A DNA stretch of 64,000 nucleotides from Enterococcus aquimarinus (GTDB lineage: Bacteria > Bacillota > Bacilli > Lactobacillales > Enterococcaceae). Below, piece by piece: positions 7,030 through 21,712 of the stretch. Numbering within the stretch: the stretch's first letter is position 1; every line of letters starts with the position of its first letter. Position numbers and translations under genes: made by a program. The stretch lies in NCBI RefSeq assembly GCF_001885765.1, contig NZ_JXKD01000002.1:62001-126000 (forward strand). Reading direction: 5' to 3'. The notes under the pieces were generated by a model. That model was not told where the DNA came from and ran no database searches. It saw nothing but the letters and a program-made list of their open reading frames with translations.

Positions 7030-8382
7030 TTACGACTGACGATCAGCCATCGCTTGATACTCGCGATCTTCTGTCACTTCTTGATATGCTGGTCGAATGA
7101 TTTTTTGAGCATTAACTAATTCTTCCATGCGGTGGGCAGACCAACCAACAATGCGCGCAATAGCAAAAATCGGTGTATAAATTTCTGGTGGCAGATCAAG
7201 CAAGTTGTACACAAATCCGCTAAAGAAATCGATATTGGCACTCACACCTTTAAACATTTTTCGTTTATTCGCAATAATTTCCGGCGCGAGACGTTCGACT
7301 AACGTATACAGTTGATATTCTTTCCAAGCCTCTTCGCCTTTTTCTTCCGCTAATTTTGAAACATAGCGTTTGAAAATGGCGGCACGCGGATCATTATCAC
7401 TGTAAATCGCATGGCCCATTCCATAAATTAACCCTTTTTGATCAAAGGCTTTTTTATCGAGTAAATCTTCTAAATATTGCGCAACAGCCGCTTCATCGCT
7501 GTAATCCGTTAACTGCGCTTTTAAATCTGTCATCATTTGGGTGACTTTAATATTCGCCCCACCATGCTTTGGACCTTTTAATGAGCCTAATGCTGCTGCA
7601 ATGGTTGAATATGTATCCGTTCCACTAGAAGTTACCACCCGTGTCGTAAAGGTCGAGTTATTCCCGCCACCATGCTCCATGTGTAAAACAAGCGCCATAT
7701 CTAATGTTTGTGCTTCTTGTTTCGTATAAGAGCGATCTGGACGCAACATTTGTAGCAACGCTTCTGCAGTACTTAAATTTTCTTCTGGTAAATGAATATA
7801 CATACTTTCTTCTTTATTATAGTGATTGTAGGCATGATACGCATAAATCGCTAATAACGGAAAAACACTAATTAACATGATACTTTGAGATAACACATTT
7901 TCCAACGAAATATCATCCGAAGCCTCATCATAACTCGCTAGCGTCAACACACTACGAGACAAACTGTTCATCACATCTGCCGAAGGGGCTTTCATAATGA
8001 CGTCACGAACGAAATTCGTGGGTAACGTCCGATTACTCGCAATCAACGCTTGAAATTCAGCCAACTCCTCTTGGTTTGGTAGCTCACCAAATAACAGTAA
8101 GTACGCGACTTCCTCAAAACCAAAACGATCTTCTGAAACAAATCCTTCGACTAAATCATCAATTGAAATCCCACGATAGCGCAACTCACCGCAACCTGCA
8201 ACGACTTGTCCATCGACCATTTTCTCTGGATAGACCGTTGAAATCGTGGTTAGACCCGCAACGACGCCCTTTCCTTGATCATCTCTCAATCCACGTTTTA
8301 CCTCGTATTTCGAATATAACTCATTGGCAATTTGATTATTTTCTTCGATTTGCGTTAACATTTTTTCGCGATCCAAAAACAT
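7030..8382 (-). CDS. citZ: Citrate synthase
   Basis: Condenses acetyl-CoA and oxaloacetate to citrate. The 450 residues include a 45-residue N-terminal extension before the core, as in the longer Firmicute citrate synthases. Catalytic residues are visible: H273 in GPKHGGAN, H324 in GMGHAIYSDNDPRA and D385 in SANIDFFSG, with HMEHGGGNNST near 234-244. The ATG at 8382 lies only three bases after GGAG; a TTG two codons in (8376) has better spacing and may be the true start. It is divergent from acnA-icd, and together they form the oxidative half-cycle from acetyl-CoA to 2-oxoglutarate, probably for glutamate synthesis. Confidence 0.95.
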   Translation of the reverse strand: MFLDREKMLTQIEENNQIANELYSKYEVKRGLRDDQGKGVVAGLTTISTVYPEKMVDGQVVAGCGELRYRGISIDDLVEGFVSEDRFGFEEVAYLLLFGELPNQEELAEFQALIASNRTLPTNFVRDVIMKAPSADVMNSLSRSVLTLASYDEASDDISLENVLSQSIMLISVFPLLAIYAYHAYNHYNKEESMYIHLPEENLSTAEALLQMLRPDRSYTKQEAQTLDMALVLHMEHGGGNNSTFTTRVVTSSGTDTYSTIAAALGSLKGPKHGGANIKVTQMMTDLKAQLTDYSDEAAVAQYLEDLLDKKAFDQKGLIYGMGHAIYSDNDPRAAIFKRYVSKLAEEKGEEAWKEYQLYTLVERLAPEIIANKRKMFKGVSANIDFFSGFVYNLLDLPPEIYTPIFAIARIVGWSAHRMEELVNAQKIIRPAYQEVTEDREYQAMADRQS

Positions 8383-8400
8383 CGACTCCTTTTTATATCT

Positions 8401-8420
8401 TCTAACATGATTATGTTAGA
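8401..8420. promoter_or_regulatory. Dyad in the citZ leader
   Basis: Eight-base perfect inverted repeat TCTAACAT / ATGTTAGA with a four-base spacer, 19-38 bases upstream of the citZ start and downstream of its -10. It is a candidate operator or mRNA hairpin. Confidence 0.4.
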
Positions 8421-8453
8421 TTACACATTATTTGTATTTATTTCTTAAAATGT

Positions 8454-8459
8454 ATTATA
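8454..8459 (-). promoter_or_regulatory. citZ -10 element
   Basis: TATAAT on the minus strand, about 72 bases before the citZ start. The -35 is weak (CTTTCA-like at 8477-8482) and overlaps an inverted repeat AAATGAAA / TTTCATTT (8474-8481, 8487-8494), which could bind a regulator shared by both divergent promoters. Confidence 0.55.
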
Positions 8460-8498
8460 GCACGGTAAGACTAAAATGAAAGAATTTTTCATTTACTA

Positions 8499-8527
8499 TT
8501 GGCTTTTTTTCATTTTGAACGTATAAT
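8499..8527 (+). promoter_or_regulatory. acnA-icd promoter
   Basis: -35 TTGGCT (8499-8504) and -10 TATAAT (8522-8527) with a 17-base spacer, about 40 bases upstream of the acnA start. Confidence 0.7.
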
Positions 8528-8568
8528 TATGCCATATCTCTAATATTTTATAGACTGGAGGACCACCT

Positions 8569-11262
8569 ATGAACTGGCATAAAGAACTTGTACTGTCGAA
8601 TAAAACGTACAATTACCTTGATCTAGGCGCTGTCGCAGAAACTTATCATTCAAATTTAACGAATCTTCCTTATTCAATCCGAGTATTATTAGAAAGTGTC
8701 GCTCGTCAGATGGGAGAAGATATCACAAAAGACGACGTTGCTTCCTTAGCCAACTGGCAAGCGGATAATCCTCAAGGTGTCGTGCCCTTTAAGGTCGCTC
8801 GGGTTATTTTACAAGATTTTACTGGGGTTCCAGCTGTTGTCGATTTAGCTGCCATGCGTGACGCGATGGTTGCATTGGATGGGAAAGCCGCAGATATCAA
8901 TCCAGATATTCCGGTGACCTTAGTGATTGACCACTCCGTCCAAGTCGATCAATATGGCAACAAAGGTGCTATTGCCTTCAATACGGCCAAAGAATTCGAG
9001 CGCAACAATGAACGCTACGAGTTTTTAAAATGGGCACAATCTTCTTTTGAAAACTTTGATGTGGTGCCGCCAGAAACGGGGATTATTCACCAAGTCAATT
9101 TAGAAGTGTTATCTGAAGTTATTTTAACGGAACATAAAGCTGGGATTGATTGGCTATTGCCAGATACTTTGCAAGGAACAGACTCCCACACAACCATGAT
9201 TAACGGCTTAGGCGTGCTCGGTTGGGGTGTTGGTGGAATTGAAGCCGAAGCTGCTCTTTTAGGCGAAGCGTCCTTCTTCCCGACTCCTGAAGTAATTGGT
9301 GTCCGTTTCGTCGGAACTTTATCACCAGGTGCGACTGCCACGGATTTAGTGTTATCCATTACTGAAACGCTACGCAAAGAAAACGTTGTCGGTAAATTTG
9401 TTGAATTTTTTGGTCCAAGTTACCACGAATTAAGCTTAGCTGACCGCGCAACCATCGCCAACATGGCTCCTGAATATGGTGCGACGTGTGGTTTTTGTCC
9501 GATTGACGACGAAACATTACGCTATTTAAAAATTACTGGACGCTCAGAAACTGTCATCGAACGTGTTGAAACTTACGCAAAACAAAATCACTTGTTCTAC
9601 GATGACACTATTGAGCCCACTTATACAAAAGTCATCACGGTAGACTTAGCAACAATTCTACCCGCCTTAGCTGGACCAAAACGGCCACAAGATCGCATCT
9701 TATTAACCGAGGTCGCTCAAGACTTCCATGATAGTTTAACGGCACCTGTCGGACCAAAAGGTTTTGGTTTAAGCACGGAAGAAACTGAAAAGCAAGTCGT
9801 TATCGAGTGGGATAAAGAAGACAAAGTCATTCAAACTGGTGATTTACTGTTAGCGGCCATTACAAGCTGTACGAATACAAGTAATCCATTCGTCATGCTT
9901 TCAGCCGGTTTACTTGCAAAAAATGCGGTTGAAAAAGGATTAAGAGTGCCTGACTACGTTAAAACATCCTTAGCTCCTGGTTCAAAAATCGTTACCAGCT
10001 ATCTCGAAGCAAGCGGACTCATGCCTTATCTCGAAAAACTCGGTTTCTACTTGGTTGGTTACGGCTGTACAACCTGTATCGGTAACTCTGGACCATTGGC
10101 AGATGAAATTACCGAAGCTTTGCAAAAAGAAGAGATGCTTGTATCTTCTGTCCTGTCTGGAAACCGTAACTTTGAAGGACGGATTCATCCATTAATTAAA
10201 GCGAACTATCTTGCTTCTCCACCACTCGTGGTTGCCTACGCTCTTGCTGGGACTGTCACAAAAGACTTAACGACGGAACCAATTGGCGTTGATGCAAGCG
10301 GTCAAGCCATTATGCTAAGCGATATTTGGCCTGATAAAGAAGAGGTTCAACGCTATATCGATCAATTTGTTTCTCCTGAAGCTTTCCGCCTTGCTTACGG
10401 TGATTTATTTAGTGCCAATGAGCGTTGGAATGCGATTGATACCACGCACAGTGATTGCTATTCATGGGATGAACTTTCAACCTATATCGCTCACCCACCT
10501 TACTTTAAAGGTCTGACAAGAGAATTACCTGAACAAGGCGTCTTAACAGACTTGCGAATTTTAGCAAAACTAGGAGATTCTGTTACCACCGATCATATTT
10601 CTCCTGCCGGCAGTATTGCGTTGCACTCGGCCGCTGGAAAATATTTAAAAGAAAAAGGCTTGCGTTACAGTGATTTCAACTCGTACGGTTCACGTCGCGG
10701 GAATCATGAAATTATGATGCGTGGGACATTCGGAAATATTCGTCTCCAAAATCAACTCGTTCCTGAAATTAGTGGTGGTTACACACGTTACTTACCAACA
10801 GGTGAAGAAATGTTTATTTACGATGCTGCTTTGCGTTACCAAGAAGCAAACATCAATTGTATGATTTTAGCCGGTAAAGATTACGGTATGGGCTCTTCCC
10901 GTGACTGGGCGGCAAAAGGGACGCAATTACTCGGAGTGAAAGTCGTTTTAGCCGAAAGTTTCGAGCGGATTCATCGTAGCAACTTAGTCATGATGGGGGT
11001 TGTCCCATTAGAATATTTAGCAGGTGATACCGCAGAGTCGCTTGGACTTACTGGAACGGAAACTTTCCAAGTCTTGCTCCCAGAAGAACCAACTGTCAAC
11101 CAACTCGTTCAAGTCATCGCGACCGACGCGCAAAATCATGAAACATCCTTTATGACACGTCTGCGTTTTGACGCGCCTGCAGATATCCGCTACTGGAAAC
11201 ACCAAGGGATTTTACCAATGGTTATTCGTAAAAAATTAAGTGAAAGCGCAGGTAGCCTATAA
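8569..11262 (+). CDS. acnA: Aconitate hydratase (aconitase A)
   Basis: [4Fe-4S] enzyme that isomerises citrate to isocitrate through cis-aconitate. Its 897 residues match bacterial AcnA/IRP1-type aconitases. The three cluster cysteines are C434 (TSCTNTSNP), C500 and C503 ([13 protein letters not shown]). [19 protein letters not shown] near residue 200 and the C-terminal swivel domain with [10 protein letters not shown] near residue 775 complete the family pattern. GGAGG precedes the ATG. The stop codon is one base from the icd start, so the two are translationally coupled. As a known bifunctional family, the apo-form may bind RNA under iron limitation; that is not visible here. Confidence 0.98.
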
Positions 11263-11263
11263 G

Positions 11264-12499
11264 ATGACACATATTGAAGAAAAAATCGTTCCCTATATTC
11301 CTGGCGATGGCGTCGGACAAGAAATATGGCAAGCTAGTCAACCCGTTTTTGATGCCGCCATTCAAAAAGCCTATCAAGGACAAAAAAAGATTCTTTGGCA
11401 AGAAATTTTAGCCGGGGAAAAAGCGTTTGACCAAACAGGCGAATGGTTGCCAGAAGCGACACTCGAGGCCATTCACGAGGCCAAAATCGCCATCAAAGGA
11501 CCATTAACGACACCTGTCGGCGGAGGCATTCGTTCCATTAATGTGACATTGCGTCAAAAATTAGATTTATTCGCTTGTGTGCGTCCCGTTCGTTACTTTA
11601 AAGGCGTTCCTTCGCCGGTGAAAGAACCTGAGAAAACCGATATGGTCATTTTCCGAGAAAATACGGAAGACGTCTATGCCGGTATCGAATTTGCCATTGA
11701 CGATCCGAAAACGAAAAAAATCATTGACTTTTTACAACAAGAATTAGACGTTACATCGATTCGTTTCCCTGAAACGTCTGGTATTGGGATTAAACCAATC
11801 TCAAAAGAAGGAAGCCAACGCTTGGTCCATTCGGCAATTGATTACGCAGTCAAACAAGGCCGTAAAAGTGTGACGCTTGTCCATAAAGGAAATATCATGA
11901 AATTTACCGAAGGCGGTTTTAAAAACTGGGGATATGACCTCGCTGAAAGCAGCTTTAAAGAGACAACCTTCACGATGCGACAATTTGATAAGATAAAAGC
12001 TGACAAAGGTGCTGACGCGGCTCAAACGGCCTTAAAAGAGGCTCAAGTATCAGGTAAAGTCATTATCAATGATGTGATTGCCGATAATTTCTTGCAACAG
12101 ATTCTCCTTTATCCAGAACGCTATGATGTCGTGGCAACAACCAATTTGAATGGTGACTATATTTCTGATGCATTAGCAGCCCAAGTTGGGGGAATTGGCA
12201 TCTCGCCTGGTGCTAACATCAATTACCATACAGGGTATGCCATTTTCGAAGCGACTCACGGTACTGCTCCAGATATCGCCGGTCTCGGCAAAGCCAACCC
12301 ATCCTCGCTCTTACTTTCAGGTGTGATGATGCTAGAGTACTTCGGTTGGCAAGAGGCCGCAGATCTCATTACACAGGCGATTGAACAAGCACTTGTTCGC
12401 AAACAAGTGACGAGTGATTTTGCTCATCAACTACCCGATGCTACTTTGCTTTCAACTCAAGAATTTGGTGAGTATCTTATCACCCTCTTAAATCATTAA
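11264..12499 (+). CDS. icd: Isocitrate dehydrogenase, predicted NAD-dependent
   Basis: Oxidatively decarboxylates isocitrate to 2-oxoglutarate. The 411 residues align with E. coli-type Icd: [12 protein letters not shown] at the start, [13 protein letters not shown] with the substrate serine S91, and HGTAPDIAG with D337 and I338. E. coli has Lys-Tyr at the D337-I338 position to hold the 2'-phosphate of NADP; Asp-Ile there, plus S384 and H388 replacing the Tyr and Arg of the NADP pocket, are the signature of NAD-specific enzymes. The ATG at 11264 is one base after the acnA stop; an in-frame GTG inside acnA is less likely because the family N-terminus begins at MTHIEEK. Confidence 0.96.
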
Positions 12500-13927: not shown

Positions 13928-13963
13928 AAAAAGCCGAAGAATCACTCGATTCTCCGGCTTTTT
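13928..13963 (-). terminator. Terminator closing the opp-tldR-guide RNA transcription unit
   Basis: Stem of 16 positions with one A-C mismatch, a four-base loop and T-runs on both strands. On the minus strand it is the first terminator after oppF and the TnpB-like gene, and it begins about a dozen bases past the candidate 16-nt guide. Confidence 0.85.
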
Positions 13964-13975
13964 CTTTTCGGTTTT

Positions 13976-14067
13976 TCATAATTAGTGAGGCGGATTCCTA
14001 GAAACAAAAGCCCAAAGACTTTTTCTATACCCTAGGCGATCCCTGGAGCTCCTTCCAGTTCTGCGAC
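13976..14067 (-). ncRNA. Candidate omega-RNA-like guide RNA of the TldR protein (scaffold plus guide)
   Basis: In TnpB/TldR systems the guide RNA is made from the 3' end of the protein gene and the sequence just after it. On the minus strand this stretch holds a hairpin CTGGA/TCCAG (14043-14058), an AAAAG/CTTTT hairpin (about 14007-14024) and a possible pseudoknot between CCTAGG (14031-14036) and CTAGG (13997-14001), ending in TAGGAATCC at 13992. The following bases, GCCTCACTAATTATGA (13991-13976), are the candidate guide, and the terminator lies just beyond. The scaffold probably extends into the 3' end of the protein gene. The boundary is inferred from structure and position only. Confidence 0.6.
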
Positions 14068-14994
14068 TTATTCGTACGTAAGTTCTTTCCCGTACCATTC
14101 AGCCTTGTATTCTAACTTCTTTAGAAACATTTGCCAATCTGCTTTAGAGAAATAGAGTGGTTGATCTGGTAACGTTTCAAACAGCAACTCTTTTGTCACA
14201 TGAATAAAATCAAATTGACGAACAATCGCATATGAAACTTGATCAAAATAATTTTCTTTTTTCTCTCGGCAAGAAAGTTGCAAGCGACCAAGTTTTTCTT
14301 TTTGTTTTTGATAATTTTTAGCATACGCTAGAGGAACTCGGCGTTTTCGTGCGATCTTCCCACGAACTCTCAGCTTTCGCTGCGCGCGATCGATTTTATC
14401 AAGCAATTGTTCTTGATTGCATAAAGTCGGCGGTGTATATTCAGAACTTTCTAATAATTTATTCGGTGAATAGACCAAATGAATGGTCTTTAACGTCTTC
14501 GGTAGTGGTTCTACCTCTTCCACACATAAAAAAGAGACAAAGAATTCTTCGTTATTTCTCGAAGAAATTGTAGCAGATTTAATCGTTCCTTTGATTTCAC
14601 GATGGCAATTCACTGCAACCAAACTTTTTAATTTGGGTAATTTTAAATAACCATCGGAAAGACAAATCGTTTGTCCTTGATTGTTTGTCGTATAAGATTG
14701 TAGAGGATTCGATTTATTCTTTAAACTCGGATAGTCACTTTTCCCCGTATAGTATCGGCGAAAAGCTTTCTCTAGATTGCGTTGGGCATTGGCTAAAGCG
14801 AGACTATCCGTCGCTTTTAAAAACGGATAGTCTTTTTTTAAGGCCGCTGGGGTTAGTTTTCCCCCTTCTGACTGTTGCCTCGCAACAAGTAAATGATTAT
14901 ACGTAAATCGAACACAACCAAACGTCGTCACGAAAAAATGTTTTTGTTCTTCATTTGGATAAATTCTAAAGCGATACGCTTTTAAGACACTCAT
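14068..14994 (-). CDS. tldR: TnpB-like nuclease-dead protein (TldR), oppF-associated
   Basis: The 308 residues match IS200/IS605 TnpB at the N-terminus (LKAYRFRIYPNEEQ ... CVRFTYNHLL) and in the RuvC-flanking helices ending DWQMFLKKLEYKAEWYGKEL. The nuclease is dead. The first catalytic Asp (IDLG in TnpB) is replaced at I171-H172-L173, and the second motif (VIEDL) reads HVTKEL with Thr at the Glu position. The protein stops before the zinc finger and the third Asp. This is the pattern of TnpB-like nuclease-dead repressors, which are RNA-guided transcription factors; a class linked to oppF has been reported in enterococci. It begins 32 bases after oppF with GAGGT upstream of the ATG. No transposase or second IS end is seen, so it looks domesticated, probably as a regulator of peptide uptake or of a distant promoter. 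Confidence 0.88.
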   Translation of the reverse strand: MSVLKAYRFRIYPNEEQKHFFVTTFGCVRFTYNHLLVARQQSEGGKLTPAALKKDYPFLKATDSLALANAQRNLEKAFRRYYTGKSDYPSLKNKSNPLQSYTTNNQGQTICLSDGYLKLPKLKSLVAVNCHREIKGTIKSATISSRNNEEFFVSFLCVEEVEPLPKTLKTIHLVYSPNKLLESSEYTPPTLCNQEQLLDKIDRAQRKLRVRGKIARKRRVPLAYAKNYQKQKEKLGRLQLSCREKKENYFDQVSYAIVRQFDFIHVTKELLFETLPDQPLYFSKADWQMFLKKLEYKAEWYGKELTYE

Positions 14995-15026: not shown

Positions 15027-15965
15027 TTACGAGCGAATGGTTTGGCGATATCCTTCTAATTCTTTTTCATTTCCATAAACAAAATGACCTGGTTTTACTT
15101 CACTAAAGGTTGGTTTATCGACCGAGTAATCATGCATTTCTGGGTCGTAAACAATCAGTTCTTTCTTACGCGCTAAGATCGGATCTGGAATTGGCACCGC
15201 TGATAATAAGGCTTGCGTATAAGGGTGTAACGGATTACGGAATAGTTCTTCCGTTTCAGCCATTTCGACAATGCGTCCAGAACGAATAACAGCAATTCGG
15301 TCAGAAATGAAGCGAACAACAGATAAATCATGTGCGACAAAGAAATAGGTTACGTTGTTTTGAATTTGTGATTCTTTCAGTAGGTTTAAGACTTGTGCAC
15401 GAATCGAAACGTCTAACGCAGAGATTGGTTCATCGGCAATTACTAAGGAAGGTTCCATAATTAACGCACGCGCAATCCCAATCCGTTGACGTTGACCGCC
15501 TGAGAATTCATGGGGATAACGATACATATGTTCCGGTAACAAACCCACTTGCTCAATAATTTTTTCTACTTTTGCGAGGCGGTCTTCTTCCGAGTCGAAT
15601 AAACCAAAGTTGTATAATCCTTCAGAGATAATATACTCAACTGTTGCCCGTTCATTTAATGAAGCAGAAGGATCTTGGAAGATCATTTGGATTTTACGGA
15701 TTTTATCTTCCATCTCTTCTTTTGATAACTTCGTATTAATTTTTTTACCTTCAAAAACAATGTCACCGTTACTCGTTTGATTTAAGCCAACTATCGCACG
15801 TCCAATTGTCGTCTTACCAGAACCAGATTCTCCTACAAGCGAGAAGGTTTCTCCTTTATAGACATCAAAGTTCACATCTTGCACCGCGACGAATTTCTTT
15901 TTGCCTTCGCCAAAGGTGATCTCAAGATCTTTAATGGATAATAAAACTTCTTTATCTTTCGACAT
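15027..15965 (-). CDS. oppF: Oligopeptide ABC transporter ATP-binding protein OppF
   Basis: One of the two cytoplasmic ATPases that drive OppABCDF peptide import. The 312 residues show Walker [10 protein letters not shown]-loop [10 protein letters not shown], signature [15 protein letters not shown], Walker [13 protein letters not shown] and the H-loop AHDLS, then the Opp-type C-terminal extension after [15 protein letters not shown]. The ATG at 15965 is chosen because GGAGG lies eight bases upstream; a TTG two codons earlier is too close. It overlaps the end of oppD by 14 bases. The TnpB-like gene follows directly. Confidence 0.96.
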
Positions 15966-17028
15966 CTTCAATTCCTCCAGCTTGTGCTTTTAGTAAAGCA
16001 ACCATTTTTTCATGTAAGTTTTGGATGATTTCTGGTTTCTCTGATTTAGGCGCTCTTGGGTCTAGCAACCATGTTTTGGCAAAGTGCGTTTCGGATACTT
16101 GGAACATCGGTGGTTCTTCCGCAAAGTCAATTTCCATTGCGTAAGAACTACGTGGTGCAAAGGCGTCTCCCTTAATATCTTTATATAAAGAAGGTGGTGT
16201 TCCAGGAACAGAATACAACTGATCCCCACGGTTTCCTAATTGCGGCAATGACGATAACAAGCTCCATGTATACGGATGTTGTGGATTATAGTAAATATCT
16301 TCCACAGTACCGGTTTCAACGATTTGCCCTGCATACATCACGGCAACCCGATCGGCAATCGATGCCACGACACCTAAATCATGCGTAATAAAAATCGTTG
16401 TAAATTTATATTCTTCTTGTAATTCACGAATTAAATCTAAAATTTGCGCTTGAATCGTCACGTCTAATGCGGTTGTTGGTTCATCACAAATTAAGATCTT
16501 TGGACGACACGCTAACGCAATGGCAATGACAATCCGTTGACGCATCCCACCTGAATATTGGAAAGGATAATCGTCATAGCGTTTTTCAGCATAGGGAATG
16601 CCGGTGCGATTCATTAAATCAATTGCCATTTGTTTTGCTTCTTTTGGTGATTTTTTTTGATGCTTAATGATGACTTCTGAAATTTGCGAACCAATTGTTT
16701 TAATTGGATTCAATGAGGTCATCGGATCTTGGAAAATAGTGGCAATTTCTTTCCCACGAATGCCATCCCAATCAGAATCTTTTTTCAAATCACTTAAAAT
16801 TTTATCTTGATAACGAATCGTGCCGCCAGTAATTGCTCCGTTTGATTCTAACATTCCAGTAAAAGTCTTAGTCAATACAGATTTACCTGAACCAGACTCT
16901 CCTACGATTGCTAACGTTTCTTGTTCTTTCAATTCAAGAGAAACGTTACGAATGGCACGTAATTCACTACTACGAACTTTAAAGCCAACGGAAATATTTT
17001 CAGCACTTAAAATTGTTTTTTTCGCCAT
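15952..17028 (-). CDS. oppD: Oligopeptide ABC transporter ATP-binding protein OppD
   Basis: Second ATPase of the peptide importer. The 358 residues contain Walker A GESGSGKS near residue 43, signature [15 protein letters not shown], Walker [13 protein letters not shown] and THDLG. The Opp/Dpp C-terminal domain follows ([15 protein letters not shown]), but the cysteine cluster that binds an Fe-S cluster in some OppD proteins is not present. GGAGG precedes the ATG. It lies between oppC (18-base gap) and oppF (overlap), consistent with one polycistronic mRNA. Confidence 0.96.
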
Positions 17029-17046: not shown

Positions 17047-17982
17047 TTACATGTGTGTTCTTGGGTCAGCGGCATCGGCCAATGTCTGTCCAACAATGTA
17101 AAGAGAAACAGAAACTAAGGCTAAAACGGTAACTGGAATCCAGAATAAATATGGATAGTTCCCCATATTGTTTGTATATTGTGAAATCAAACGGCCTAAC
17201 GACGGTACATTCGCGCTCAGACCAACCCCTAAGAACGATAGGAATGTCTCATAAGAGATGAAAGCCGGAAGTGAACGAGACACGTCTGTTACGATAATAG
17301 ATGTTAAATACGGTAAGATATTTCTAAAAATCATCCGTACTTTTGGTGTTCCTAATGTTCGTGACGCTAAATTGTATTCGCGATCACGCATAATCATGAC
17401 TTGTACACGGATAAAGTAAGCTGGTGCTAACCATCCTGTCACACACATGGCAAAGATTAAATTCCAAAATCCATTTCCAAATGTATAAGACATAACAATG
17501 ATGATCAATAATTGAGGAACGTTTGAAATGACATTATAGATTTCTAACATGACTTTATCAAACTTTTGTGACACACCCCAAATGGCTCCTAAAACGACCC
17601 CAATGGTAGTCGTAATAATTGTTGCGATAACAGAAATCGAGATTGACGTTTTCGCTCCTGCCCAAACAGCGTCAAACAGAGACATCCCGTTTGCATCCGT
17701 TCCAAACCAATACTGTAAACTTGGTGGATTGTACCGTTTGGAGAAATCATTAATATCTTCTACGTTTAAAAAATCATAACCACTAAAGATTGGTTGGATA
17801 AAAGACATTAATAAAATTGCGGTCATTAATACGAGCATCGCGATCGCGGTTTTGTTCGAAAAGAACTTGCGACCGACTGAACGCCAGTAGGAATACGTTG
17901 GTGTATCAATTTTTTCAGAAGACAAGGAGTCAATGGTGACGAAAGTAAAGCCATCATTTATTTTTTGATTCGTTTTTTCCAT
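17047..17982 (-). CDS. oppC: Oligopeptide ABC transporter permease OppC
   Basis: Membrane subunit of the peptide importer, 311 residues. A cytosolic N-terminal arm of about 45 residues precedes the first transmembrane helix (AIAMLVLMTAILLMSF), then the BPD_transp core with the coupling motif near REYNLASRTLGTPKVRMIFRN (residues about 200-220). It starts at ATG 17982 after GAGGAG, one base from the oppB stop. It pairs with OppB to form the pore. Confidence 0.96.
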   Translation of the reverse strand: MEKTNQKINDGFTFVTIDSLSSEKIDTPTYSYWRSVGRKFFSNKTAIAMLVLMTAILLMSFIQPIFSGYDFLNVEDINDFSKRYNPPSLQYWFGTDANGMSLFDAVWAGAKTSISISVIATIITTTIGVVLGAIWGVSQKFDKVMLEIYNVISNVPQLLIIIVMSYTFGNGFWNLIFAMCVTGWLAPAYFIRVQVMIMRDREYNLASRTLGTPKVRMIFRNILPYLTSIIVTDVSRSLPAFISYETFLSFLGVGLSANVPSLGRLISQYTNNMGNYPYLFWIPVTVLALVSVSLYIVGQTLADAADPRTHM

Positions 17983-17983
17983 T

Positions 17984-19471
17984 TTATTCTCCTCTTTCTG
18001 CTAAGTTAATTCGTGGATCAACCATTGCCATCGTTAAGTCTCCTAATAGAACAGACGTCACGGCAACTGTTGTAAAGATAAAGACAACTGCAATCACGAT
18101 CGGATTGTTGTTGGCCATAATGGCATCCGGTAACATTTTACCCATCCCAGGTGCTGCAAAGACTGTCTCGGTAATTGTCGCACCAGTAATTGCACCAATG
18201 ATACTCATTGGAATTTGGTTCGCAATTGGAATTGCGGCATTTTTAAAGATATGTTTGCGCGCGATTTCGCGTGTATTCAGACCTTTTGCTTTCGCAAATT
18301 TCACGTAGTCGGCTGATTGTTGGTCAATCATATAACGACGAATCCAAATGATAATGTTCGAAACCGATAGTAACCCTAAGATTACGGTTGGTAAAACATA
18401 GGAACGAATATCACCTGCGCCAAAGGTTGGGAATGAATCGGGTAATCCAAACCAATTACTTCCAAGGAAACGGAAGAAATAAATAAACGCTAAACTCGGT
18501 ACAGAAATTAAAACGGTAACTAACCCAATTCCTAATTTATCTGGGAAGCGCCCTTTGTAGCGTGCCATTAACATCGCGAACGGAATGCCGATGCCATAAG
18601 CAAGTAAGACCGCAATGACACCCATTCTAAATGAAATACCAATCATTGAAGGATCTTGATAAATGTTATCGGTAATCGCATAGTTATCATTGAATAATTT
18701 TTTCTCTTGTGAGGATAATTTCTCTGTTGCTTGGTATTGTCTTGAATAAAGATTTGCTGCTGATTTCGCAGTAACCCCTGTTGGGAATGTTAACTCACGG
18801 CTATCTGTTTTCCCTTGTCCACCAGTGATGACTTTCATCACGTCTTGACCGGCAAACGTTGGATATGATACGCCTAAGTTTAAGTGCACGATATTTTGAT
18901 GGATATACGGGAACTGTTTATTGAAATACACTTGGTATTTAAATTGTGTCCCTGAACCAACTAAGGCCCATCCAATTGTCTCGTCTTTTTCGAAACGTAG
19001 TGACCGCTCTAGATCCGGATTTGACGGATCATTCACCTTCCATGGATGATCAATCTGTATCATATTGGCATAAAAACGGAACACACGCGTTGGTAATGGG
19101 ATATCTTTCGTCGTATAAAAGGCTTTACTGATTGGCAATTGATGTAATTCCCAACCGTTCGTGTCTGCCCACTCTTGCAAAATTGCCTTGTTCTCTGCAG
19201 TTGGCTCCCCAGTTAATCCTTCATGGTCTTGACTTACGGTATCAATTAATTCCTTTGAAGATAAATATTCAATATATCCCATTTTGCTAAAGGCAGTGTT
19301 CTCATAGTTCGCCAACTCATCTGGTTTCCCTTTAAGTTTCCCATAGTTAATATCGTCTTTAAAGACATTTCTACGAGGAACTAAGGTATAAATCACACCA
19401 TAAGTGATTGTCGTTACCAGAAAGATACTGAGGATTGATCTTAGTATTCTAAATGAAAGGTATCGCTTCAA
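17984..19471 (-). CDS. oppB: Oligopeptide ABC transporter permease OppB (with large extracytoplasmic insert)
   Basis: Second membrane subunit. At 495 residues it is well above the usual 300-340, because about 220 hydrophilic residues lie between the first transmembrane helix (residues 10-31) and the second (about 275). By topology this insert faces outside, where it could contact the lipoprotein OppA. The C-terminal half is a standard permease core with the coupling loop near YVKFAKAKGLNTREIARKH. TTG start at 19471 after AGGGA. Long OppB proteins of this kind occur in related lactic bacteria. Confidence 0.95.
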   Translation of the reverse strand: MKRYLSFRILRSILSIFLVTTITYGVIYTLVPRRNVFKDDINYGKLKGKPDELANYENTAFSKMGYIEYLSSKELIDTVSQDHEGLTGEPTAENKAILQEWADTNGWELHQLPISKAFYTTKDIPLPTRVFRFYANMIQIDHPWKVNDPSNPDLERSLRFEKDETIGWALVGSGTQFKYQVYFNKQFPYIHQNIVHLNLGVSYPTFAGQDVMKVITGGQGKTDSRELTFPTGVTAKSAANLYSRQYQATEKLSSQEKKLFNDNYAITDNIYQDPSMIGISFRMGVIAVLLAYGIGIPFAMLMARYKGRFPDKLGIGLVTVLISVPSLAFIYFFRFLGSNWFGLPDSFPTFGAGDIRSYVLPTVILGLLSVSNIIIWIRRYMIDQQSADYVKFAKAKGLNTREIARKHIFKNAAIPIANQIPMSIIGAITGATITETVFAAPGMGKMLPDAIMANNNPIVIAVVFIFTTVAVTSVLLGDLTMAMVDPRINLAERGE

Positions 19472-19538: not shown

Positions 19539-21512
19539 TTATTTTGCTGCTTCTCTGTCTGCAAGCCATTTTTCATGTGCTTCATCAAACTGATCAACAG
19601 TAACGATGTCATCTTGTAATTCAACGTATTTCAATTTATTTGCTGCAATTCCAGCCCAGCCATCTGGTGCTGTAAATGGTACAACTTTTGTCACACGTGG
19701 TAATCCTTCGTCAGAGTTGACTGGGATTTGAATAACATTATTCAATAACCATGCTTCTGCTTCTGCGTAAGCTGCATAACGCTCATCTGTATTTTCAAAG
19801 ATTGCGTTCGCTTTGTCTAATAACGCGTCATATTCTGTTAGACCAATTGCTTCTTTTGCTTCTTTTGATGGATCTTCCCCTTCAACAAGGGCTGAACCTT
19901 CAAGACCTAATGTTTTTAACATATCCCCAGTACGAGAATCATAAATATTCAAGTAGCTTGATGGATCAACGTAGTCAGGTCCCCAACCAGATGCATTCGA
20001 GATATCAAAGTCTCCAGCAGCTCCGGTTGTCGCTTGGTAAGTTGCTTGTAAGTATTGATCTTCACTCAACATTTGAATATCCACTACAACATTGTCTGTT
20101 CCTAAAGAAGACTCAATTGTGCTCTTTAATGATTTCACTTGGTTGACGGATACTTCTGCTTTTGCATTCACTGGAATATCTAAGTGAATTGGGAATGTTA
20201 CGCCATCAGCCTCTAAAGTTGTACGTGCTTTTTCGATGTATTGTTTTGCTTTTTCAGGATTGAAGTAACCATCTTGTCCTTCTGCCAATACAACATCGCC
20301 AAATGCTTCTGTGTCAAGTGCTTGTAAGTTTGTTTGAACGCTATCACCAAAAGGCTTGCCTTCAATCGTTACAAATTGTGTTGGTACTAATGTATTACGT
20401 AAGCTGTTGTCTGCGCCTTCTTCACCAACGTTTTGTGCACGGTATGAACGCGTATCAAAACCAAATAAGATTGCTAGACGGAAGTCACGGTTACGAATTG
20501 CTGCTTGCGTATCCGCTTTTTCAGCATCTGTTGCTTTAGAAGTCGCACCATATGTACCACGGTTAAAGTTGAATGTTACGTTAAATGTTGATCCGCCAGG
20601 GAGTGACCATGTCACGCCATCTGGGTGAGCTGCTAACACATCTTTGTAACCTGGTGAGTTTGGATAAACACGTGCTGCACTTAACGTTCCTTCTTCAAAG
20701 GCTTTAAATAGGCCATCTGGATCTGAACCGTCGTTATATGTCCATTTTACCGTATCGTAATTCACATTTTCTGCATCCCAGTAGTCTTCATTTTTCTCGT
20801 ATTCAATCACAGATTTCGCTGTATTGTTTTTCAAGATGTAAGCACCGTTATAAAGAATTGAATCTGGTGATGGTTGCCCAAAAGCATCGCCTTTTGATTC
20901 TAAGAACTCCGCATTGATTGGGTATAAAATCCCGTAAGTTGTTTTTGAATTCCAGAATGATTCTGGTTGGTTTAACGTATATTCGAGTGTGTAATCATCG
21001 ATTGCCTTCACGCCAACTGTTTCGAAGTCACTTGTTTTTCCTTCAATATAGTCACTTAAGCCGACGATACTATTTGCTACGATGTATAATGTTTCAGATT
21101 TCTTTTCTACGGCATGTTTGATTCCAGTAACCCAGTCATGTGCCGTTACTTCTGCGCCATATTCGTTACCTTCACTATCAAGCCATTGAACACCTTCACG
21201 GATTTTGTACGTATACGTTAAGCCATCTTCGCTTACTTCCCACGATTCTGCTAACGCTGGTACTAAATTACCTAATGAATCATTTTCTAATAATCCGTCA
21301 ACAAAGTTCGTGAAGTGATCACTATTTGTTTTACGTTGTGACACCGTGTAGTCTAATGTTTCTAAATCTGTTGCAAAGACCGAATTAAATGCAACGGGTG
21401 CAGTACTTCCTTCTCCTTTGCCCGCAGAATCACCACTACCGTTGCCGCCACTACAAGCCGCAAGTACAAATGTACTAACCAATACAGTTGCTAAAACCTT
21501 TCTTACTTTCAT
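19539..21512 (-). CDS. oppA: Oligopeptide-binding lipoprotein OppA
   Basis: Substrate-binding protein anchored outside the membrane; it captures peptides for OppBCDF. The N-terminal signal MKVRKVLATVLVSTFVLAAC ends in the lipobox LAAC, cysteine 20, followed by a Gly/Ser-rich linker. The 657-residue length and the segments ETLDYTVSQRKTNSDHF and YTYKIREGVQWLDSEG are typical of SBP family 5. The start at 21512 follows GGAGG; 11 codons upstream of it are not part of the protein because they lack a signal. First gene of the operon. Some enterococcal OppA-like proteins bind peptide pheromones; that cannot be judged here. Confidence 0.96.
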   Translation of the reverse strand: MKVRKVLATVLVSTFVLAACSGGNGSGDSAGKGEGSTAPVAFNSVFATDLETLDYTVSQRKTNSDHFTNFVDGLLENDSLGNLVPALAESWEVSEDGLTYTYKIREGVQWLDSEGNEYGAEVTAHDWVTGIKHAVEKKSETLYIVANSIVGLSDYIEGKTSDFETVGVKAIDDYTLEYTLNQPESFWNSKTTYGILYPINAEFLESKGDAFGQPSPDSILYNGAYILKNNTAKSVIEYEKNEDYWDAENVNYDTVKWTYNDGSDPDGLFKAFEEGTLSAARVYPNSPGYKDVLAAHPDGVTWSLPGGSTFNVTFNFNRGTYGATSKATDAEKADTQAAIRNRDFRLAILFGFDTRSYRAQNVGEEGADNSLRNTLVPTQFVTIEGKPFGDSVQTNLQALDTEAFGDVVLAEGQDGYFNPEKAKQYIEKARTTLEADGVTFPIHLDIPVNAKAEVSVNQVKSLKSTIESSLGTDNVVVDIQMLSEDQYLQATYQATTGAAGDFDISNASGWGPDYVDPSSYLNIYDSRTGDMLKTLGLEGSALVEGEDPSKEAKEAIGLTEYDALLDKANAIFENTDERYAAYAEAEAWLLNNVIQIPVNSDEGLPRVTKVVPFTAPDGWAGIAANKLKYVELQDDIVTVDQFDEAHEKWLADREAAK

Positions 21513-21627
21513 GTATACTCCTCCATTTTCCTTTTTCTTTTGCACTCCCGTTTTTCATTCCTCTTCCATCTTTAAAAAATTCTTTCAAAAATTTGAATTG
21601 TCTGAAAAATTAGATAAGCATGAGAAA

Positions 21628-21656
21628 ATAATACACGATTTTATTTTATTCGTCAA
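21628..21656 (-). promoter_or_regulatory. opp operon promoter
   Basis: On the minus strand: -35 TTGACG (21651-21656), 17-base spacer, -10 TATTAT (21628-21633). The leader before oppA is about 110 bases. No exact copy of the downstream candidate guide is visible around this promoter. Confidence 0.75.
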
Positions 21657-21712
21657 TCTCTTTTTTTAATAATTAATTAGAAAAAACGTGCGACCGAAAT
21701 GAAATTTCGTTT

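Follow-up and report, generated by a model that had tools for sequence, protein, structure and literature searches.

Why should a peptide-uptake operon of a bacterium end with a relative of a transposon-encoded nuclease? The question is raised by a 64,000-nucleotide stretch of the Enterococcus aquimarinus genome (GCF_001885765.1, contig NZ_JXKD01000002.1, positions 62,001 to 126,000; hereafter the window), in which an oligopeptide transport operon, here named opp1, is followed by a gene for a TnpB-like protein, here named tldR. The best-supported answer is that the protein is an RNA-guided repressor which would use a six-base seed and control the operon that contains it, along with a small number of genes for nitrogen supply; the binding and its direction of effect are what we infer. 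A first-pass annotation had described the gene as a nuclease-dead TnpB relative captured as the last gene of an opp operon. The guide RNA gene behind tldR and the candidate target at the opp1 promoter were not part of that description.

The tldR open reading frame (ORF; 14068 to 14994, minus strand) encodes 308 amino acids without interruption. It has a ribosome-binding site of the GAGGT type and lies 32 bases behind oppF1 in the same direction (14994 and 15027 being the facing ends); the clean frame, the spacing and a good ribosome-binding site had been annotated first. Homology to TnpB extends along the length of the protein: the Pfam domain HTH_OrfB_IS605 is matched with an E-value of 7e-17, two other Pfam TnpB domains score under their cut-offs, and the nearest solved relative is the ISDra2 TnpB (E=2e-23). 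The catalytic columns were read against the host's own TnpB, which carries the motifs GLDLG, IEDL and HDRDINAS and a zinc finger. In this alignment the RuvC-I aspartate column is occupied by valine (motif TIHLVYS) and the RuvC-II glutamate column by threonine, and the C-terminus falls before the zinc finger and the third aspartate. The first-pass annotation had placed these losses correctly, except that it took the RuvC-I replacement for a histidine, which is two columns off. Realignment did not restore the catalytic residues, the RuvC-I residue being gone in all 41 aligned family members. The window protein is without the Asp-Glu-Asp set and the zinc finger of a TnpB nuclease, and differs from the ISDra2 TnpB (PDB 8h1j, 8bf8, 8exa) also in the lack of transposon ends. 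Indeed, no transposase ORF was seen around tldR when the ORF lists were scanned by eye, and no insertion sequence (IS) ends were seen nearby, in agreement with the annotation. Searches of plasmids and phages turned up matches, all of them below 60% identity. The ratio of nonsynonymous to synonymous substitution rates (dN/dS) of tldR is 0.037-0.152 in seven pairs with dS of at most 1.1, which points to purifying selection; in 8 of the 15 pairs dS was above 2 or saturated. The assignment of the protein to the TnpB-like nuclease-dead repressors (TldRs) is supported by these data, and its action would be that of a repressor.

Downstream of the tldR stop codon the sequence reads AACTGGAAGG...TTTCTAGGAA...CTCAC-TAATTATGAAAAACCG, followed by a strong terminator hairpin. 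It adjoins tldR as a predicted guide RNA with a TnpB-type scaffold, and its guide begins TAATTATGAAAAACC. Of the 40 loci fetched, 38 have such an RNA 3' of tldR (L133 was recognised by eye, the other 37 by pattern); it is missing from L112, where the gene is broken, and from L113. In L113 the tldR2 frame is open, and its genome (G064) also has tldR1 with a guide RNA. The 41 guide RNAs found comprise that of the window, the 37, and those of L003, L014 and L016; 38 of them were aligned, the exceptions being L121, which duplicates L120, and L136 and L016, which are longer. CAC-TAATTAT is invariant across the alignment, and there is covariation between paired columns (pairing in 98.6% of cells; double changes 24 vs 4.6 in shuffles). 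In the relatives L136 and L016 the guide RNA matches the Rfam family RF02841, Ref70 (Enterococcus sRNA 70), from end to end, with 135.6 and 115.6 bits at a cut-off of 115, and the Ref70 model ends 12 nt inside the guide. The guide RNAs of L132, L109 and L097 gave no Ref70 match at E 0.01. A promoter of the guide RNA's own in the end of tldR (14109-14137) was considered and rejected: consensus matches are as frequent in shuffles, and in relatives it is unconvincing by eye.

The transposon-adjacent motif (TAM) and the guide start can be assigned by analogy with 12 IS copies, taken from two genomes, of related catalytic TnpBs with about 44% identity to the window protein. All 12 right ends read TAGTTCAC and continue into unrelated DNA, the guide starting directly after TTCAC, and all 10 left ends that were read start with TTTAA and are preceded by unrelated DNA. 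Because the IS ends show both, the TAM of the window system is taken to be TTTAA and its guide start TAATTA. The motif TTTAA had been considered beforehand and was afterwards confirmed by these ends and by a guide-blind count of 11-mers, given below.

The predicted target is TTTAATAATTA, in which TTTAA is followed by the first six bases of the guide. The window has a single copy, 8 bp upstream of the -35 box TTGACG of the predicted opp1 promoter, and the 2.5-Mb genome has six, vs 24 for the reversed word. The promoter itself is a consensus match only, of which 21 were found vs 22.9 expected in shuffles. Two other target readings were set aside. The opp1 site read on the operon strand (TAATTATTAAAAA, 12/13) gave way to the opposite strand when TTTAA was taken into account, and the longest match to the full 16-nt guide elsewhere in the genome, a run of 14 nt that lies upstream of an xpt-like gene (G000 C3:65684-65697), was dropped because it is preceded by TTTC and not by the TAM TTTAA. 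By eye, this match lies in or near a purine-riboswitch-like leader.

Across relatives the site follows tldR. OppA1 was found in 17 of 105 family genomes, and TTTAATAATTA is present at opp1 in 13 of the 14 that have a tldR match (in G053 and G056 tldR is called from sequence matches) vs none of the three without tldR. Twelve genomes have it upstream of oppA1 at a distance of no more than 450 bp; in G055 it falls between oppA1 and oppB1. When the guide was not used at all, none of the 7139 11-mers found upstream of oppA1 was shared by more genomes than TTTAATAATTA, which tied with its own one-base shift; the next 11-mer reached seven genomes. Dinucleotide shuffles (300 rounds) gave a mean of 0.22 genomes and a maximum of 2, vs the 12 observed. 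Because strand and distance (-130 to -408) vary over six genera, the opp1 sites probably arose several times.

At the second operon, opp2, TTTAATAATTA is present in 30 of 30 TldR loci (where promoters were inspected by eye, it separates the -35 from the -10 box) vs 0 of 30 OppA2-like loci of TldR-less genomes. The latter come from 14 of 27 such genomes and are those of 38 OppA2-like matches whose loci were examined, the full operon having been checked in G024 and G009 only. The Fisher value of 9e-12 for this association assumes independent genomes, an assumption that does not hold here. In genome G024, which belongs to the same genus as L132-L135, opp2 is still present with its -35, -10 and CodY-like box, but tldR, apparently lost, and the guide RNA are both absent; its site reads TTTAG-AAATAT, so that the site is lost and the promoter retained. 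The guide matches promoter DNA beside the TAM over the 6-nt seed only. In 29 of the 30 opp2 loci (L133, whose guide RNA was not caught by the regular expression, was left out), guide and target agree at base 7 in 17 pairs and at base 8 in one, bases 1-6 agreeing in all 29 by construction as the search pattern contained them. No support was found for pairing past guide base 7, whether or not a bulge was allowed. For a fliC-associated TldR, 6-nt guides suffice, a 6-nt seed has been mapped and guide-target mismatches are tolerated (PMC13418256).

All 45 TTTAATAATTA sites of nine genomes, six of them picked for few sites, were placed: 15 are coding and 30 intergenic. Thirteen are at peptide transporters, namely at opp1 in all three window-genus genomes, at opp2 in all six others, at a third, OppD-first opp operon (28-78 bp upstream in all three genomes of one genus; L197, L202, L204) and at a POT-family gene (G047). 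Three more are upstream of leuA in the three window-genus genomes (L145:1500, L181:1500, L186:1116), where they are followed by a CodY-like box and by a leader peptide that contains a stretch of leucines.

The usual family order is oppABCDF2-tldR-guide RNA-nudix, and the conserved succession of oppF and tldR proposed as a check in the first-pass annotation is hereby found. Seven loci have lost opp2, leaving tldR flanked by rlmN and nudix. The gene is tied to opp2 in 30 loci and to opp1 in four fetched genomes (the window, L097, L098 and L099) and in E. alcedinis (L003), a stable association with non-transposon genes. The two operons are non-orthologous, and the opp1-linked tldR genes form one clade (support 100/99) among opp2-linked genes, so that a single move or duplication would explain them most simply. 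No close OppA2 was found in the window genome (best 33% identity). The direction, presumably from opp2 to opp1, depends on a tree root that rests on one very distant TnpB. Since the family is mostly at opp2 and the window clade is in the non-orthologous opp1, the gene is better called relocated than captured, although its annotated place at the end of an operon stands. The window gene agrees with the oppF-associated group in lying directly behind oppF and departs from it in not sharing the opp operon of the bulk, and is therefore a branch of that family at a new locus.

These features lead to a model in which TldR loads the guide RNA encoded directly behind its gene, and the complex would open DNA at TTTAA plus six seed bases and block RNA polymerase. 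As the operon to be repressed ends with tldR itself, this would amount to negative feedback on peptide uptake, beside the CodY-like sites. Because the guide seems to count over its first six or seven bases only, it would be a fixed 11-bp address, and the regulon would shift as promoters acquire or lose sites (opp1, opp2, third opp, POT, leuA); the tldR-guide cassette would have moved or been duplicated once, from opp2 to opp1, in a host now without a close OppA2. That TldR pairs with the adjacent guide RNA, binds the predicted TTTAA-TAATTA site by its own opp1 promoter and represses that operon is, in our judgement, quite probable. We lean, with more reserve, towards the wider proposition that it is a fixed-motif transcription factor with a guide reading of about six bases and one 11-bp address (seed plus transposon motif), that its nitrogen and peptide-uptake regulon was rebuilt by site gain and loss while the gene hopped between opp operons, and that Ref70 is its guide RNA. 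The regulator under selection for peptide-uptake control that was first annotated is borne out by the catalytic loss, the guide RNA, dN/dS and the opp-promoter sites, its repressing action being predicted.

Several observations weigh against repression through a fixed address. The window guide matches the opp1 site at bases 1-6 only, and guide bases 8-16 agree with their own opp2 targets no better than with shuffled ones (93 matches vs 96.1; 1919 of 2000 shuffles as high). No link was recognised for 29 of the 45 placed sites (15 coding, 14 intergenic). The window RNA reaches only 38.7 bits with Ref70 (13973-14064), under the cut-off of 115, in which it differs from the RNAs of L136 and L016, and without its terminator it folds no better than shuffles (z -0.60). 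Genomes of the same genus are not independent. G042 has tldR genes and no opp1 site; a second intact tldR there (L166:4200-5800, minus) immediately precedes oppA1. No guide RNA is recognisable for this copy and TTTAATAATTA is absent from 11 kb; it may borrow the guide RNA of the opp2 copy. Finally, the opp1 site precedes oppA1 by 187-300 bp in two genera, that of G037/G039/G041 and that of G053/G054/G056, and by 408 bp in G027, far from the promoter as read by eye and therefore a poor fit to simple polymerase blocking.

It is these distances, together with the leuA site upstream of its CodY-like box and promoter, that speak for activation, DNA bending or help to CodY at the same sites instead of repression. 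We regard this as unlikely though worth keeping in view, since binding between the -35 and -10 of the opp2 promoters would block polymerase, and other TldRs are repressors (PMC13418256). Much less probable is that TTTAATAATTA serves as an AT-rich element of promoters or is bound by some conventional regulator, and is tied to tldR by shared ancestry only. The word is AT-rich, its position within the opp2 promoter is conserved and the genomes are related, but it is identical to the TAM read from the IS ends followed by guide bases 1-6, its opp1 copies occupy either strand and unrelated positions in six genera at a frequency far above that of the shuffles, and in G024 it was lost while the promoter was kept. 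We can hardly credit, in turn, that tldR is a decaying, functionless TnpB remnant: the catalytic residues and the C-terminus are lost, the tldR2 of G063 contains a stop codon and tldR evolves faster than oppF in every pair with both values computable, yet dN/dS is low, the guide start is invariant and IS ends were not seen.

The TldR family is already known, and oppF-associated TldRs of enterococci were reportedly described by Wiegand in Nature in 2024. Like the window protein, these are TnpB relatives without catalytic residues, behind oppF and with a guide RNA directly downstream; the window clade differs in its non-orthologous opp operon (OppA of about 660 amino acids, OppB of 495) and in a host without a close OppA2. 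The fliC-associated TldRs share the short seed with the window TldR, whereas they are prophage genes beside flagellin and the window gene is chromosomal, in a peptide-transport operon and with several predicted targets (PMC13418256). A literature search on TldR with oppF or opp, which did not extend to the target data of the founding TldR paper, found no paper, nor did one on Ref70 with Enterococcus faecalis, and a word search of the main text of some Enterococcus RNA papers gave no Ref70, TnpB, transposase or oligopeptide. Three points appear new relative to the literature searched, the founding paper excepted: the relocation, a regulon that depends on the seed only and turns over its sites, and Ref70 as guide RNA. 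If true, a transposon nuclease would have become a housekeeping regulator by a frozen seed and promoter-site evolution, not by guide retargeting; enterococci and tetragenococci would have a testable RNA-guided layer above peptide and leucine supply; and the small RNA family Ref70, so far known by number only, would gain a likely function.

The features of the locus are collected in Table 1.

Table 1. Observed and predicted features of the tldR-opp1 locus (positions in the window).
Feature	Position	Strand	Remark
Predicted intrinsic terminator hairpin 3' of guide RNA	13928..13963	-	
Predicted guide TAATTATGAAAAACCG, bases 1-6 the putative seed	13969..13984	-	conserved RNA and IS analogy
Guide-RNA scaffold, TnpB-type, 3' end CTCAC	13985..14060	-	boundary by analogy with IS right ends
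tldR, TnpB-like without catalytic residues, last gene of opp1	14068..14994	-	308 aa
oppF1	15027..15971	-	
oppD1	15952..17028	-	
oppC1	17047..17982	-	
oppB1, long form	17984..19471	-	495 aa
oppA1, peptide-binding lipoprotein, first operon gene	19539..21512	-	ATG at 21512
CodY-like box ATTTTTCAGACAATT	21596..21610	-	
Predicted opp1 promoter	21628..21656	-	-35 TTGACG (21651-21656), 17 bp, -10 TATTAT (21628-21633)
Predicted target, TAM TTTAA (21665-21669) and seed match TAATTA (21670-21675)	21665..21675	+	8 bp from -35

The CodY-like box was named by its resemblance to the CodY consensus. OppB1 has a long extra N-terminal part, since its permease domain covers residues 295-488 only. Citrate synthase-, aconitase- and isocitrate dehydrogenase-like ORFs, named by eye, are adjacent to one another at 7030-12499 of the window, and such ORFs adjoin tldR in L003 and L004 too.
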